A DNA stretch of 64,000 bases from Polychytrium aggregatum. Its lineage: Eukaryota > Chytridiomycota > Chytridiomycetes > Polychytriales. The notes below the pieces were generated by a model. It was not told the DNA's origin. It worked only from the letters and a program-made list of their open reading frames with translations, and ran no database searches. A program made the translations under genes and the position numbers. Below, piece after piece: positions 2,520-61,366 of this stretch; within the stretch, counting starts at the first letter, position 1, and each line of letters starts with the position of its first letter. The stretch is from positions 62,001 through 126,000 of the forward strand of contig NW_026516262.1 of the NCBI RefSeq assembly GCF_025602895.1, written 5' to 3'.

Positions 2520-5500
2520 TCATTGCAGAAGGGGATCAAGTTCGGACGCAATTTCGTCCGCCAGACAGATAACCGCTTTGGACAGGGCACCGAGTCTGTT
2601 GAAGAGCCATATGCATGGATCAGTATCCACAGTTGCACGCTCGGACCATACAGAAATATGTTGCTGTGCTTACCCGCAGAGGAGCTCATCAATACTCTCC
2701 GTCGCCGTCCTTGATCCTTCAACGACAGCCACCATGCAGGGGCCGGCTTTGAGCTGAGATGGAGAGTATTAGTGCCAGTCCAACGTCGACAGCGCTCGCA
2801 AACTGCCAAATACGGGCGGTTGCGGTTCATCCGCCAACATGTGCGCCCCTTGATCAAAGTTCCTCATCCGACTGGATCGAGGCGCGAAACCATCTCTCCA
2901 CGCAGACTGGATCTTACCCAGTCAAGCACCTGCTTGTCGACAACATCGGCGAGCCGCTCCACGACAGATTGACTCAGCTTGGTCAGCTTGAGCTTGGCCA
3001 TATTCATCGGTCGGCTGCGGTCGGCTGAGCGGGTGTGCCGATGCGGTTTGCTAATCGACGGGGCGTTGCCACACAGCTCTTCCAACGTTTTCCCCCACAG
3101 ACTGTAGTTGTCTGCCATCATCGGGAACTCGCATGCCACCACGACACATATCCGACGGTCGGATCCGTGCGCTCCTCGCTCGATCGCTGCGGGGGCTGTC
3201 AGTTCATTCGTTGGTACAGCGGCAATGCCGAGTTGAACGGAAGGGGCAATAATCTGCCGCAGCGTAAAGGGGTCCTGGACAACAAGAGCATCACAGTGTC
3301 GGCACATCAGCACATCAGCACATCAGCAGATGGCCGAGACTTGGACTCCCTCGCTCGACCGTCGTACCTGGGAGCATGCAGACAACTCAATGTCCATCCC
3401 CTCTGGAAACAGGATCTTGAGTTGGAGACTGGCGAGCTCATATGTCCATGGCAAATACACCCCGCAAAAGCTTGTAGACGTTTCTGGAGATGGCCATATG
3501 TCATGAGGTCAACAACAGCCCACCAGATCGGACTAACAATCCCACTGCATGTCCATAACAAAAACCTTACCTCCGCATAGGCAGTCGAGCAACAGCCTGA
3601 CTGCATCCGAATGCACCACCCCCAGCACGACAGACATTCCAGCGGCGGGCTCCTGTGCAAAATGCAGGGTACCGTTTGTTGGGCAATCGCTACGATACTT
3701 TGCAGCAATCTTGCGTAGCCTCGATGCTGTATCTTGTTGAACATGGACCGTCGTCAGGGTCGATACAACAAGCCCACAAGCCGCGGTCCTGGCGAGAATC
3801 GAGCCAATGCAGCCGGCCTGGGGGGGGGGAGCAGACACAATGCGGTCAGGACTCTGCGTGATTCGTTTGGGTGCAGGTTGACGGACGTGAACTTACCAGT
3901 GATTGCGGCACTATCACAAACGAGCTGATCAGGAGCGGAGGCGTTGTCGCATATGCAAGCCAGCCGAGCGCAGCCAGCCTTGGGGTATAAATGTCTGCAG
4001 ATCCCAAGCATTCTATGCGCAGATCGCGGTCGTGGAAGAACGCATTGACGTGCGCAAAGGCCGCTTCTGGGTTCTGTGAAAACACCACCGAGAGCTGCTG
4101 TCGTAGCCGGCTGACACGATCATGATATTGCTCGCAGTTGTTTGGGGGCTTGTTCAGGGGTTTTGGCAGTAGCTCGTTGGCAATCCTCTCCGCAAACGCA
4201 TATCCATCTGCGCGATGCAGGGCAAGGACAATCCAGGACGATTGCTCTGGCGGCTCGAGGTTCCCGGGATCCATCAGCGCCTCCAGACTTGCCACGCTGT
4301 CCCAAGTCCCGGTGGCAAATGGTGTGAGTGTGGCAGCCAGATGCCGATCAAGTGCCCGAACCATCTTGATTCCCAATAGCCTCGTTCCCACGACAGGGAA
4401 TCGGTCAGATGGTTTGGTAGGATGCTGCGTTGTAAGGAGCGGCGATTCCTTGACCGGAAACAGCTTTCTCAGCAAATCGACAGCCAGTCGAAACCGAGCT
4501 GCTATGACAAATGTCTGAGACTGGGTCTCTCTCGATAGCGGGTGTGGGCAGTTGAGCTGTCGCTCGATGACGATGTTCCTGAAACAGCAGACGAATGCCA
4601 TCAGCGATATCGCGGCAGGTTGCAATCGGCGATGCAGCTCAATCCGGTCACCTGGCTGTTGGGGCCACGCGATTGCCATAGCAATCAAAGTTCCGAAAGC
4701 TCACCGTCTCGGTATTCGGTATTCCGTATTTTCGTCGCGAACATGAGTCTCGCCGACTTCCAACTGCACAGACGAAGCTTGGAAGAGATCGCTGGCCAGA
4801 GCCTCAGTTATCGGCTCAAGCATCACGGCCGTGTTCTTAAAGTGGACATGGCACAGATTGATGAGGAGCTTGTGCAAATGCTCGCTCAAGCGGCGGGGTT
4901 GCTCAAAGACAGAACAGACTCCTTCACAACGTCGCAGTGTCACTGCAAGATGCCGCTTATCCCTAAACGGCACAGAGTTCCGGGTGAGCCACATCAACGG
5001 CCACAGAAGCCACAGAGCCACATTTGACTGGCGTCGGACAGACAACAAGACATGTCCAGCATGGAACCCACCTCTGCATGTTGAGGACGTGAAACCCGAT
5101 CGCCTGGATTTCTTTGAAAACATTGGTGTAGAAGCACAGGGGGACATGCTCCGATATTCGCAACAACAGCTCGCTGGGGCCCGCCGGGCGCTGAGGCGGG
5201 TCATGAAGACACGTCTCTGGAGGCTGCTTGCCATCAATAGGCGATTCCTGAGGAGCGGTAGGTACAGGGACGTTTCTGGGATAGCCTGGTGGTTGGGGCG
5301 AGTGTGTGCGAATCTTCGTTCCACTCTCCTTCTCGATGTGGTCAACGAGCCGGGCCACCGACTGCTGTTTCCTGGATGCTTCCTGGGCTGGGTGATTGTG
5401 CTCCACGGGCGAGACTGTGGCCTCGACCTCGTTCTGTGACTGCGATGAATCGGTTGCTTGATCCTTGTCGGCGGTGATGCAATAGAGTGAGGGAGTCTGG

Positions 5501-23375: not shown

Positions 23376-24597
23376 GATGTCGTTGATGATGGCACGATCG
23401 ATCGATCGATCGATCGATCATGTCGCCGCGAAACCCGAGATCACTCCCAGCCCAGAGCGAGAGCAGAACAGCGCTCTCGGCATCTCCTCGGTGTCTCCTC
23501 GGTGTCTCCTCGTTGGAGTGGAAGTTGGGACTCTGCCGGCGGACCGCTCAGTTGCCTCGCACCGCTCCAGGACGGCTGTTGCTCTGGGACTCGAATATAC
23601 CCACACATTGCAATCATGTCCAAACAGTGTGTCCCAGGAAGCAGCGGTTTGCTGGGTACTTTGAACAGCGCAGGTCGATTGTGGAGACTGGAGAGCAACC
23701 CACGGTCTTCACTCAGAGGCGATCTGTTGAATCGCATGTGGTTCTGTTGGACCCATTCTCATCCTAAACCATGCTGGCATACGGGATCGCGAGGCCGTCC
23801 CATGTGTAAAGTGTATGGCGAAACATGGACTCGGGCAGCATGATCATGACCACACCGCAGCACGACCCGATAATTTCGGCAGGACTGTTTACGCCATTTT
23901 TGCGTTGGCTGTTGTTTATTGCTTCGTTACTGGCCGTTTTGATTGATTCGGCGTTGTTCATTCCTGCACCCATCACTCTACTGTTTTTGGTTTCTGGTTG
24001 TTCTTCCTGTTGCAATTGTTTTGTGTTCACTTGGAAACGTCTCCGACTGATAGGTAACCCCGTGACCAGTCGTGGTAGGGTTAGGGTAGAGCACACGCGT
24101 GTCTGTGCGCGCCTGCTGTCGCACAGCCGCGTGGCCGAAAATAGCCGACGCGCCCGTCGCCACCGGCCAAGCGGCGTCCGTTTCGGTCTCTTTGAGCTGC
24201 TGGGCCGCTGGGGTCTGCTTGCGTTTTCTTTTTCCCTGTGGCATCATCGTCCTCGGGTCGCCTCCTCGGGTCGCCTCCTCCGCCTGCAGCCCCATTCTCC
24301 TTGCTCGACCTCCCTGTCTGGGACGTCGGCGGTCCGTCTGTTTCTGTCTCTACCGTCTCTTCCGTTTCTGTTTCCGCCATCCGTCGCCCAACCGAGCGGC
24401 GCTCTCAGAGATTGTCTTGAGTCGTCTGTGCCTCCTCGGTCTGCATCCCTTGCTCGCCACAACCGCCCTTGCCGCCGCTGCTTCTTGGCCTGCGGCCTCA
24501 GCAATCAACTGCCCCGACCACCGGTTACTCACCCGCCCGGTCTGACGAGTGCTGCCCTGCCATCACCAACTTTGTCGCCAAGTTCTCCCATTGCGCC
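23376..24597. promoter_or_regulatory. 1.2-kb divergent upstream region with telomere-like TAGGG motif
   Basis: This separates the small mitochondrial-type gene from the C2-AGC kinase. A TAGGGTTAGGGTA motif occurs at 24076-24088. The last ~450 bp before the kinase start are pyrimidine-rich (many CTCC/GTCT stretches), as in a transcribed leader. No convincing gene is seen. Confidence 0.5.
23398..23419. repeat. ATCG tetranucleotide repeat
   Basis: Five tandem GATC/ATCG units lie just upstream of the start codon of the gene at 22646-23375. Similar ATCG runs occur in a PUF-gene intron at about 57364-57380. Confidence 0.8.
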
Positions 24598-43952: not shown

Positions 43953-45071
43953 ATGCAGGGCCGGCAGACAGAGGCCGGCAGCCGGATATCAACTGCCACC
44001 GTCCTCGACCTGATCGGCGCTGGTCTCTGCCTCGCGAACATGCATCTCGGAGCGGCAATCCAAAACACCCTCGGATTCCTGCTAGATGCATCCGCTCCGG
44101 CGGCCAGTCCGACGACGGACCTGGGCGCCAGCACAGCGACCACGGACTCAAGCGTCAACTCGGCCAGCACCGACCCCATCTCGTCCGGGACCAGTTCCAC
44201 TCCCACCACAACCATCTCGTCTCTCGGCGCGACCTCATCTCCCACAAGCCTCGTTACGGATCCACAGCAGCAGCAGTTTTGGACACTGGTTGTCGTTTGC
44301 ATCGTCGTCGGCGTCATCCTGCTGCTGGTTCTTGCTCTTGGGCTTGTTGCCTATCGTTACTACTCTGGCCCTCGACGCCGCCAGCCCTTGGACATGCGTC
44401 GGCCATCGACAACCCCGCTGGCCCAGGACAAGTCTTTCTATCCTGCCGAACTCTCTGAGCCTTCTGAGCCCGAGCCCCTGGCCATCGTCGTCGACACTGC
44501 CCATCTCTCGCTGCGGCACTTTCCCACCCCCTCGGCCATTGCTATGCAGGACAACCCGGCTTTTACTCCAGCATTCGGCAGCCAGCAGATCGCTGTCGAT
44601 CTCCGGACTATTCCAGATGAACCAGCGACACGACCGGCCGTCTCAGCCGTTATTCCCAGAGTCGACTCCCTTGGGTTGCCTGCAGACCCCAGTCAGGCCT
44701 CGCTTCCTCGGCAGGACGACATGTACGAGCCAATCGCCCAACCCGCTCCCGCCATCACCGCAACTGCCCCGATAGCCCTGTCGACCCCAACTGCCCCAAT
44801 GATTTACCAACCCATTCAAGTACTGAGAGCGCCGTCGGTGAGGAGCATGGCTGCGTCCCCTCGCCCGGGCTCGACATCAACGCCGCTGGTTCGGCCGCAC
44901 GACTCTCCAGCAATCGGCCGCGGCGCCATTCGCACAATGGCCCCACTCGCTGGCTCTGACGACTCGGCCCGGATGGAGCGTCGGGGCTCCTATGCCCCGC
45001 GACACCCTCGAATAACAACCCTTGCGTTCAATACACCGGCGCAGGGCTACCTTGTCAAGCCTGACATATAA
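43953..45071 (+). CDS. Single-pass membrane protein with Ser/Thr-rich ectodomain and long cytoplasmic tail
   Basis: The open frame encodes 372 residues from the ATG at 43953; a second ATG at about 44040 (MHLGAAIQNTLG) is an alternative start. Residues ~45-110 are Ser/Thr/Pro-rich, as in heavily O-glycosylated surface stalks. A strong transmembrane helix follows (FWTLVVVCIVVGVILLLVLA), then YRYYSGPRRRQ, a basic stop-transfer signal. The remaining ~240 residues are disordered and proline-rich, consistent with a cytoplasmic tail. The layout recalls fungal wall-stress sensors and other stalked surface proteins, but no WSC or other named domain is visible, so the ectodomain may lie in an unresolved upstream exon. 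Function not assigned. The gene ends about 75 bp from the left end of a Fanzor-bearing element. Confidence 0.65.
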   Translation: MQGRQTEAGSRISTATVLDLIGAGLCLANMHLGAAIQNTLGFLLDASAPAASPTTDLGASTATTDSSVNSASTDPISSGTSSTPTTTISSLGATSSPTSLVTDPQQQQFWTLVVVCIVVGVILLLVLALGLVAYRYYSGPRRRQPLDMRRPSTTPLAQDKSFYPAELSEPSEPEPLAIVVDTAHLSLRHFPTPSAIAMQDNPAFTPAFGSQQIAVDLRTIPDEPATRPAVSAVIPRVDSLGLPADPSQASLPRQDDMYEPIAQPAPAITATAPIALSTPTAPMIYQPIQVLRAPSVRSMAASPRPGSTSTPLVRPHDSPAIGRGAIRTMAPLAGSDDSARMERRGSYAPRHPRITTLAFNTPAQGYLVKPDI

Positions 45072-45146
45072 TGCCCAGGAACACACTAATGCCCAGCCAC
45101 ACATTATAACTCAGTCTGCCAAAGCTATGTCGGGTGTCCTTCCTCT

Positions 45147-45793
45147 TACAGTCTATCCAGAAAGAAACGGGACACTTCCCCTTCCTGGCTTCAGATGTCT
45201 GAACCCCGCTGACTGACTGTAGGCCCCAGAGGGCAAGCCATGCGATTTTTTCCCGTCCTGGCTGGCAATCGAGTGGTTTTGGTTGGTTTCGGGAGCACAG
45301 TCTTGAATACACCCGGTCGATCTCCCGTGGCGATGATCGACTGGCATACCGAGATCATGTTCCTTGAGGCATTGATGTCTCGATCCCACAGCGTATGGCA
45401 GCTTGCACAGCTCCGGACAAAGTGTGGTTTCTCGATATCAAGATACTCGGGTGACTCGAGTCACTTGGCTTCCCGACAATGTGAGCACACCTGGGATGTG
45501 TTGAACTCGTTCACCGAGCACACATGGATCTTGGAGACGGATCGGTCTGGTGGTCGTCTCTGGTGGTGGATGAACTGCTCAAAGTATTTGGCGAACCTGA
45601 GTCTCCTGGGACTGGATGCATATCCCTTCCCTTGCTTCCACGTGGCATTCCCAAAGGCAATCACCATTTCGGTCTCCCTTGGACATACTTGCTTGGCCAT
45701 GAATGCGATGAGTGGGTAGGTGTATTCAGGTCTCGAAGAAGCGACAGTCCAAGCTCAAATCGGAATGTCCCATTTCATTTTGGAATCGCTGTA
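45147..45793 (-). mobile_element. 647-bp Fanzor-bearing transposable element, copy 1
   Basis: The element is 647 bp, exactly as long as copy 2 at 60720-61366, and the two align end to end with only scattered substitutions and no net indel. Both ends read TA-CAG / CTG-TA. The terminal 26 bp after TA form an imperfect inverted repeat (about 21 of 26 match between ends here, with TCCANAANGAAANGGGACA in common). The TA at each side fits target-site duplication of the Tc1/mariner type. Inside, on the minus strand, is the C-terminal half of a Fanzor protein and nothing else, so this is a short non-autonomous element. The superfamily is inferred from the ends and TA; no transposase is present. Confidence 0.85.
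45191..45700 (-). pseudogene. Fanzor (eukaryotic TnpB-like) C-terminal remnant, copy 1
   Basis: Seventy-nine codons from the ATG at 45700 run to TGA at 45461-45463. The same frame then stays open for 90 codons to a second TGA at 45191-45193. Before the first stop: MVIAFGNATW, KGYASSPRRLRF and VNEFNTSQVCSHC, which matches the RuvC glutamate region and first Cys pair of Fanzor/TnpB. After the stop: CASCHTLWDRDINASRNM, the second Cys pair and the RuvC-III Asp motif. The N-terminal part of the protein, including RuvC-I, is absent. The frame is also open upstream of the ATG (YPLIAF), so it was truncated from a longer protein. An active nuclease is not expected. Confidence 0.85.
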
Positions 45794-45879
45794 ATATCAT
45801 TTTCTGTGCTGCCACACAGCCCTGTGCACTGTTTTTCTTCCTTCCTCGCTGCAAGTGAGCAGATGAATCGATCGACCTG

Positions 45880-45990
45880 CCGCATCGAGACATCAATGCC
45901 AGTCGATCATCGCCACAGGAGATCGACCGAGTGTATTCAAGACCATGCTCCTGAAACCGACGAAAACAAAGCGATTGCTGGCCCTGACTA
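45880..45990 (+). pseudogene. Third, decayed Fanzor C-terminal fragment
   Basis: On the plus strand, 45882-45990 matches the end of the Fanzor frame from the RDIN codons onward (CATCGAGACATCAATGCC, then the GATCGACC...GTGTATTCAAGAC region). It lacks 25 nt just after AATGCC; in the intact copies that segment lies between two ATGCC direct repeats, so a slippage deletion is likely and shifts the frame. It also has more substitutions than copies 1 and 2 have between them, so it is older. It lies 87 bp from the end of copy 1, in opposite orientation, and about 100 bp from the carboxypeptidase stop codon. Confidence 0.7.
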
Positions 45991-60719: not shown

Positions 60720-61366
60720 TACAGCGTTTCCAAAATGAAATGGGACACCCCCTGTTTTGTGCATGGCTGTATTTTTTCTGGAACCTGAATGCACCCACCC
60801 ACTCATCGCATTCATGGCCAAGCAAGTATGTCCAAGGGAGACCGAAATGGTGATTGCCTTTGGGAATGCTACGTGGAAACAGGGAAAGGGATATGCTTCC
60901 AGCCCCAGGAGACTCAGGTTCGCCAAGTACTTTGAGCAATTCCACCATCACCAGAGACGACCACCAGACCGATCCGTCTCCAAGATCCATGTGTGCTCGG
61001 TGAACGAGTTCAACACATCCCAGGTGTGCTCACATTGTCGGGAAGCCAAGTGACTCGAGTCACCCGAGCATCTTGATATCGAGAAACCACACTTTGTCCG
61101 GAGCTGTGCAAGCTGCCATACGCTGTGGGATCGAGACATCAATGCCTCAAGGAACATGATCTCGGTATGCCAGTCGATCATCGCCACGGGAGATCGACCG
61201 GGTGTATTCAAGACTGTGCTCCCGAAACCAACCAAAACCACTCGATTGCCAGCCAGGACGGGAAACAATCTCACGGCTTGCTCACTGAGGCCTACAGTCA
61301 GTCAGCGGGGTTCAGACATCTGAAGCAGGAAGGGGAAGTGTCCCGTTTCTTTCTGGATAGACTGTA
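60720..61366 (+). mobile_element. 647-bp Fanzor-bearing transposable element, copy 2
   Basis: The boundaries are TA-CAGCGTTTCCAAAATG on the left and GGATAGACTG-TA on the right, with the flanks CGTAT and TAATC outside. Comparison with copy 1 fixes both ends because similarity stops there. The terminal inverted repeat matches at about 20 of 26 positions. The only coding content is the Fanzor C-terminal frame on the plus strand. Two equal-length copies 15 kb apart in opposite orientation, each with TA at both sides, point to transposition rather than segmental duplication, since the flanks are unrelated. Confidence 0.87.
60814..61323 (+). pseudogene. Fanzor (eukaryotic TnpB-like) C-terminal remnant, copy 2
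   Basis: An ATG at 60814 opens 79 codons ending at TGA 61051-61053; the frame continues another 90 codons to TGA 61321-61323. The two segments carry the same motifs as copy 1: FGNATW, SSPRRLRF, NEFNTSQVCSHC before the stop and SCASCHTLWDRDINASRNM after it. The only difference noticed in the first segment is an Ile-to-His change near residue 44 (FEQFI versus FEQFH). Because the in-frame stop splits the zinc ribbon in both copies, it predates their separation. Confidence 0.85.

Follow-up and report, generated by a model that had tools for sequence, protein, structure and literature searches.

Short elements that share sequence with the 3' region of a Fanzor gene, a gene for an RNA-guided, TnpB-related nuclease of eukaryotes, are already known from Spizellomyces punctatus, in which Saito 2023 (PMC10432273) reported 42 Fanzor loci, full or partial, together with 134 ghosts, and the ghost-type element of the Spu-1 system is a close precedent for the unit described here. 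The Spizellomyces ghosts are about 550 nt long and carry a CA motif before the left inverted repeat (IR), and the target-adjacent motif (TAM) of the Fanzor SpuFz1 is CATA (PMC10432273). In the same account, a transposase was not found within the ends of Spu-1, and the biological roles of Fanzors were called unknown (PMC10432273). Bao and Jurka 2013 (PMC3627910) had earlier described mariner elements that carry Fanzor1, some with a transposase and some lacking one (PGv-1, PUl-1, PUl-4). Here, we describe a 647-bp element from Polychytrium aggregatum and its longer relatives in the same genome.

A 647-bp element with TA borders and a Fanzor remnant

The window analyzed, a stretch of 64,000 nucleotides from P. 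aggregatum contig NW_026516262.1, contains a non-autonomous element of 647 bp (45147..45793) with TA at each border, whose Fanzor sense lies on the minus strand. Its 28-bp terminal inverted repeats (TIRs), delimited by comparison of the ends, lie at 45766..45793 (-) (left, or 5' in Fanzor sense) and 45147..45174 (-) (right, or 3', and common to longer elements of family A). They are identical at 21 of 28 positions and each border has a single TA, confirming the inverted ends and TA borders that an earlier interpretation made from the letters alone (the sequence-only reading) had proposed. The unit reads TACAGTCTATCCAGAAAGAAACGGGACA from 45147 and TACAGCGATTCCAAAATGAAATGGGACA inward from 45793 on the minus strand; in Fanzor sense, it begins TACAGCGATTCCAAAATGAAATGGGACA and finishes TGTCCCGTTTCTTTCTGGATAGACTGTA. 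The same reading had noticed a Fanzor/TnpB C-terminal signature in the minus-strand frame, and this was correct: the frame reads IAFGN...NEFNTSQVCSHC...CASCHTLWDRDINASRN and, with X at the stop, scores 41.4 bits (E 1.6e-10) against PF07282 (Cas12f1-like TNB), for which the curated cut-off is 26.3 bits. The TNB/zinc-ribbon domain, which holds the alternative catalytic glutamate and the third catalytic aspartate, occupies 45356..45532 (-), within a reading-frame remnant extending approximately over 45263..45681 (-). An in-frame TGA at 45461..45463 (-), seen in the translation, breaks this frame, and the 79-aa part before the stop scores, alone, 17.8 bits against PF07282, under the cut-off. To call the insert half of a Fanzor gene was an overstatement, since what is retained, apart from being interrupted by the stop, amounts to some 137 codons at the end of 855, together with 116 nt of 3' sequence (equivalent to 3261-3789 of the element in locus L052, which is 3789 bp long).

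Several other features of the window deserve mention. A second full copy of the 647-bp element (locus L003) lies at 60720..61366 (+), and an 83-bp fragment of the 3' end of a family A Fanzor lies beside the first copy, in the opposite orientation, at 45896..45978 (+). A 51-bp fragment at 23670-23720 is a 90% match to the right region of family B. The 647-bp element begins 75 bp past the stop of a 372-aa frame (43953-45071, +), which is rich in Ser and Thr, has one hydrophobic stretch as judged by eye, and resembles a surface protein anchored in the membrane.

The unit is a repeat in the host assembly (64.7 Mb in 418 contigs). There are at least 46 matches in the genome, at least 24 of them spanning positions 1-647, from the 40 of 1328 candidates that were scored, and the left-end pattern, with up to two mismatches, gives 214 genome matches, against 0 for the reversed control. 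Together, the PF07282 scores and the copy number ruled out a chance match or a misread domain. Eight loci that were cut out pair by matching flanks into four pairs, and both haplotypes therefore seem to be assembled. The left end alone is shortened, by five to about nine terminal bases, in six copies that occupy four distinct sites (places C375:18653, C62:1492, C408:470107, C366:134526, C157:228124, and C67:30332, corresponding to loci L070-L071, L074-L077, L082-L083, L090-L091, and L097-L098), and this uneven decay might be the mark of failed excision.

Full-length relatives and two Fanzor lineages

Complete mariner-like elements of 3.7-3.8 kb are present in the genome, in the order left TIR, 310-aa transposase, Fanzor, and right TIR. 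Among the loci opened, five complete elements were counted, each with both ends and with intact transposase and Fanzor frames: two of family A (L052:803-4591, 3789 bp, and L048:3135-6922) and three of family B (L046:410-4152, L053:107-3848, 3742 bp, and L058:290-4031). The element in L050 was not counted as complete, having both ends and an open Fanzor frame together with a shifted transposase frame; the right end of the L049 element was sought within its locus and not found. The TIRs of these relatives are bordered by TA on both sides, as befits a TA target-site duplication. The L052 transposase scores 120.4 bits against the NCBIfam IS630 model (cut-off 100) and has D145, D221, and E256, a DD34E arrangement, and the L049 transposase scores 82.8 bits against Pfam DDE_3. 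The DDE transposase of an IS630/Tc1-mariner element is thus present in the full-length relatives and absent from the 647-bp unit, and the mariner/Tc1-like origin originally proposed for the unit is upheld by its L052 relative.

The last 529 of the 3789 bp of the L052 element match the unit at 89.7%, and a composite element in L039 matches it at 92.7% over 536 bp. Compared with the A left end of L052, the left TIR has 22 of 28 bases in common and 6 different, and among the loci opened this left-end variant was found in short copies only; three extra loci proved to be copies of 533, 556, and 638 bp, and no long element with the left end of the unit was seen among the loci opened. The expectation that longer relatives with the same ends would be found therefore holds for the right end (about 535 bp in common) and not for the left, and the suggestion that an intact parent exists elsewhere is borne out to the extent that complete relatives are present in the genome, a direct parent carrying this left end not having been found among the loci opened. 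In being short, numerous, without functional genes, and equipped with the right end of an autonomous element, the unit has the features of a ghost or MITE, with the reservation that its left TIR agrees at only 22 of 28 positions.

PF07282 has at least 150 scored matches in the genome (of 663 candidates), 59 of which, both haplotypes included, lie in stop-to-stop frames of at least 700 aa. All four full Fanzor proteins scanned with this profile scored 38.1-39.8 bits, above the cut-off of 26.3, and so the remnant and the full proteins alike fall in the TnpB/Fanzor family through their C-terminal domain, as had been supposed. Fanzor A (850-883 aa) and Fanzor B (736-791 aa) are 42% identical, and yet between-family comparisons of their transposases, three from each family, gave 96-97% identity (89-91% for one further A copy, L055). 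On the criterion of Yoon 2023 (PMC10711439), a Fanzor has DPG at RuvC1 and a glutamate that precedes the zinc finger by six residues; this fingerprint of DPG plus alternative glutamate is present in 11 of 12 full proteins, the B protein of L056 being without the E motif. The DPG-to-E spacing is 192 in A and 173 in B, longer than the 120-160 spanned by the search pattern described in that paper (PMC10711439). Differences between copies at codon positions 1, 2, and 3 number 81, 64, and 162 for the A copies L052 and L039 and 20, 19, and 50 for the B copies L058 and L045, and this preponderance of third-position differences implies that the Fanzor copies have been under protein-level constraint. 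The size of these proteins (736-883 aa) and their mariner context would fit the Fanzor1 type.

A protein database search with Fanzor A gave nothing at E <= 0.001 among 8000 candidates scored, and a search with the transposase gave 18 proteins, the best of them 36% identical, with no eukaryote named. Single-sequence Fanzor searches against solved structures gave no significant match. With a five-protein profile (four A/B Fanzors and the TnpB-like protein of L018), the best solved match was mimivirus TnpB-like L79 (E 1.2e-10), covering the C-terminal region only, and the profile listing had no Fanzor1 by name.

Further Fanzor-related lineages are present in the same genome. Frames of the L011 type (L011:280-1710, 477 aa; likewise L010, L014, and L015) fuse the start of an IS607-type TnpA to a TnpB-like protein and sit in inverted pairs about 5 kb apart. 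The L011 frame scores 46 bits against the NCBIfam IS607 model (under its cut-off of 110) and 109.8 bits against guided_TnpB (cut-off 100), and its best solved match is again mimivirus L79; by these sequence comparisons, it is a Fanzor2/IS607-like lineage. A 447-aa frame in L018:406-1746 (PF07282, 56 bits) is a further TnpB-like lineage, bringing the genome to at least four Fanzor/TnpB lineages. In addition, a family A Fanzor with the mariner right TIR lies inside a larger element with CACTATC...ATAGTG ends (L039:2696-6132, L047:1041-4489, L051:1068-4425, and L054:2671-6132, with deletion forms in L042-L044). Duplications of 3 bp (TCA, TCG, and TAT) occur at three of the five distinct carrier sites, and not at L039/L054 or L042. 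This arrangement suggests capture of the Fanzor by a carrier that resembles CACTA elements.

Allelic copies differ more inside the elements than beside them. For the 647-bp element, the flanks of four allelic pairs (L001/L002, L003/L005, L004/L007, and L006/L008) are 99.65-100% identical and the elements 94.9-98.9% identical. Between L045 and L046, the B element has 120 differences in 3742 positions (3.2%), compared with about 0.4% or less in the nearby right flank, and in L039/L054 the differences are arranged in blocks. This points either to very active exchange of sequence between dispersed copies or to copies mixed up in the assembly.

Flank bias, the predicted guide RNA, and the origin of the short copies

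A sequence bias was observed immediately outside the left end of family B. Pattern counts were made on exact left ends in the first 100 of 248 places listed (78 B-type, 15 A-type, and 7 others that were excluded), type being assigned by one letter of the left end rather than from the individual Fanzors. T precedes the TA at 74 of the 78 B-type ends and at 7 of the 15 A-type ends (Fisher 2e-5), the A-type sample being small and containing probable haplotype copies as well as one or more short derivatives (in C57 the ends are 212 bp apart). The whole genome holds eight exact B-type left ends without the T, and T makes up 22% of the bases in the window. Among B-type left ends that were fetched, T stands before the TA in 20 of 20 and A or T before that in 19 of 20, with no clear bias further out, whereas the base after the TA at fetched B right ends is C in 8, G in 6, T in 4, and A in 2 (n=20; T 20/20 at the left versus the mirror base A 2/20 at the right, Fisher 3e-9); both sets were taken in list order, one A-type place being skipped at the left and four places at the right. 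By pattern, the mirror base was seen at 32 of the 167 right ends.

The 647-bp unit belongs to family A, whose left ends show the motif only weakly. For the 647-bp family itself, the base before the left TA, with the rest of the end exact, is T in 48, A in 28, C in 3, and G in 3. Counted by distinct sites, it is T at 12 of 16 and C at 4 of 16 on the left, against A at 5 of 20 on the right (Fisher 0.006). These site counts exclude six left-truncated loci at four sites (L071/L091, L075, L077, and L083/L098), L088 and L089 (without TA), and, for the left only, L061 (broken left end); haplotype duplicates (L002, L005, L007, L008, L031, L084, L085, L090, L095, L096, and L097) were removed, L099-L101 were omitted because they were drawn from a T-first list, and L087 and L094, which have eight flank bases in common, were both retained. 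The other flank counts include both haplotypes at some sites; with counts roughly halved to allow for this, P is 0.001 for A versus B and 0.004 for A/T at the left versus the right in the 647-bp family. The (A/T)T before the TA at B left ends resembles a Fanzor TAM, and in the unit the candidate motif would be ATTA in Fanzor sense (45792..45795, -), made up of two flank bases and the TA.

The short derivatives of family B that were opened are 1113, 385, 312, and 283 bp long and have, respectively, left pieces of 665, 209, 99, and 99 bp joined to right pieces beginning at 3294, 3575, 3527, and 3575 of 3742. All four have T before the left TA. None has lost any of the terminal 168 bp, of which 68 nt belong to the gene and 100 nt follow it; this part is retained in derivatives with four different right breakpoints and in the composite deletion form as well, the 647-bp unit keeping 535 bp. 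Such retention, in the few derivatives opened, is what a kept guide-RNA region would look like, although transposase binding needs could be an alternative cause. From its position and the flank statistics, we predict that a guide RNA derives from the right end, with a scaffold in the right-end 168 bp of the unit (45147..45314, -) and, by analogy with Spu-1 as described in PMC10432273, a putative guide in the flank beyond the right end (45127..45146, -). RNA folding z scores were modest, between -0.5 and -2.4 for five A-type right ends and -2.8 and -2.9 for two B-type right ends, and Rfam gave no match in the window at gathering scores or in four loci at E 0.1. A hairpin at the right end was considered as proof of a guide RNA and rejected, because the left-end TIR, judged by eye, likewise pairs with nearby sequence and the folding is modest.

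We consider it likely that the 647-bp unit is a non-autonomous ghost of an IS630/Tc1-mariner element with a Fanzor gene, moved in trans and perhaps also maintained so by a predicted guide-and-survival route. This confidence applies mainly to the identity of the element; on the guide-and-survival part, our own judgment is evenly divided at best. A transposase encoded elsewhere would move the unit in trans, by cut and paste at TA, and the right end of the unit would encode an RNA that takes its guide from the host flank past that end. After excision, the Fanzor of a complete element and the RNA of the unit would cut the empty site if a TAM lies upstream, and the excised element would then be copied back from the sister or homologue during repair. 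Copies at motif-bearing sites would survive, leaving a one-sided motif at the left border.

The chief alternative is that the unit is an ordinary dead MITE moved by an IS630-type transposase only, with the one-sided T reflecting the preference of a transposase that discriminates between its ends and with Fanzor and guide RNA uninvolved. TA-inserting transposases usually have symmetric preferences, and a symmetric preference would put the mirror base at the right, where it was found at only 2 of 20 fetched ends and in 32 of 167 by pattern count. For the movement of such a MITE, the ends and TA borders are enough, and two further observations fit it: the motif is stronger in B than in the 647-bp family or A-type ends, and several copies have a stop in the remnant frame. 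Yet transposases that are 96-97% alike are accompanied by T at 74 of 78 ends in B and 7 of 15 in A. Since the Fanzors of the two families are only 42% identical, the flank bias seems to track the Fanzor rather than the transposase. The retention of the right 168 bp or more in all derivatives opened also speaks against a dead MITE, and on balance we regard this alternative as unlikely.

A stop within the domain of the remnant frame is common to 5 of 13 aligned rows of 647-bp copies, at three distinct sites, and the L061 row is out of frame; copies L004 and L005 are open through the domain. Over the first 40 codons, variation among the copies is in excess at the third position (0.058, 0.024, and 0.187 for codon positions 1-3), which is unlike pure drift after the deletion and fits exchange with coding copies or constraint. 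A stretch around SVSKIHVCSVNEFNTSQVCSHC is nearly invariant, with pi of 0.006 in two 25-column windows and 0.04-0.05 beside them. A further reading, in which the remnant is kept because its translation yields a short zinc-ribbon protein interfering with full-length Fanzor, would suit the third-position excess, the near-invariance, and the two open frames, but is highly improbable given the stops and the frameshifted row, and exchange with full-length copies accounts for the pattern equally well.

Returning to the ghost maintained in trans, the short copies might be guide-RNA satellites, each with its own guide (the right flank) and a borrowed Fanzor, and kept only at sites suited to that Fanzor; we think this possible and lean slightly against it. 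If it were true, families A and B would be a natural experiment in which survival of an insertion depends on the nuclease rather than on the transposase, and, as a further stretch, guided cuts would also drive the exchange of sequence inside elements at allelic sites.

Comparison with known systems

Like the Spu-1 ghosts, the 647-bp copies are short, are bounded by IRs, and have a right end similar to the Fanzor 3' region (PMC10432273). The IRs of the Spu-1 ghost are seven positions off those of the full element (PMC10432273), and here the left end is 6 of 28 off the A left end. Two conserved bases precede the left end in both systems, CA in Spu-1 and A/T then T in family B (PMC10432273), and the SpuFz1 TAM, CATA, and the candidate here are both four-base motifs ending in TA, nuclease activity being predicted for the P. 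aggregatum proteins. These proteins share with SpuFz1 and other characterized Fanzors the DPG and alternative glutamate, a C4 zinc ribbon, and an RD motif. The two systems differ in that the guide RNA was sequenced for Spu-1 and is here predicted from DNA sequence, and in that the 647-bp unit keeps part of the Fanzor reading frame, whereas the Spu-1 ghosts are described as having no Fanzor gene (PMC10432273). Unlike Spu-1 as reported, the full elements here encode an IS630-type transposase beside the Fanzor (PMC10432273).

The titles and abstract openings of the literature surveyed gave no report of an A/B contrast of this kind or of a CACTA-type Fanzor carrier, and the main text of PMC3627910 does not contain the words "EnSpm" or "CACTA," in contrast to the second Fanzor carrier found here (CACTATC...ATAGTG ends). 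As in PGv-1, PUl-1, and PUl-4, a mariner-like transposase and a Fanzor are found in one TA-bordered element (PMC3627910). The elements of Bao and Jurka also include Fanzor-only forms with mariner TIRs, and the P. aggregatum elements depart from them, as described there, in having two Fanzor lineages on a near-identical transposase and derivatives of several sizes (PMC3627910). Because this genome combines elements that encode both transposase and Fanzor, two Fanzors that accompany nearly the same transposase and have different one-sided flank patterns, and gene-less copies, a possible role of Fanzor in maintaining its element can be tested through sequence analysis and assays.
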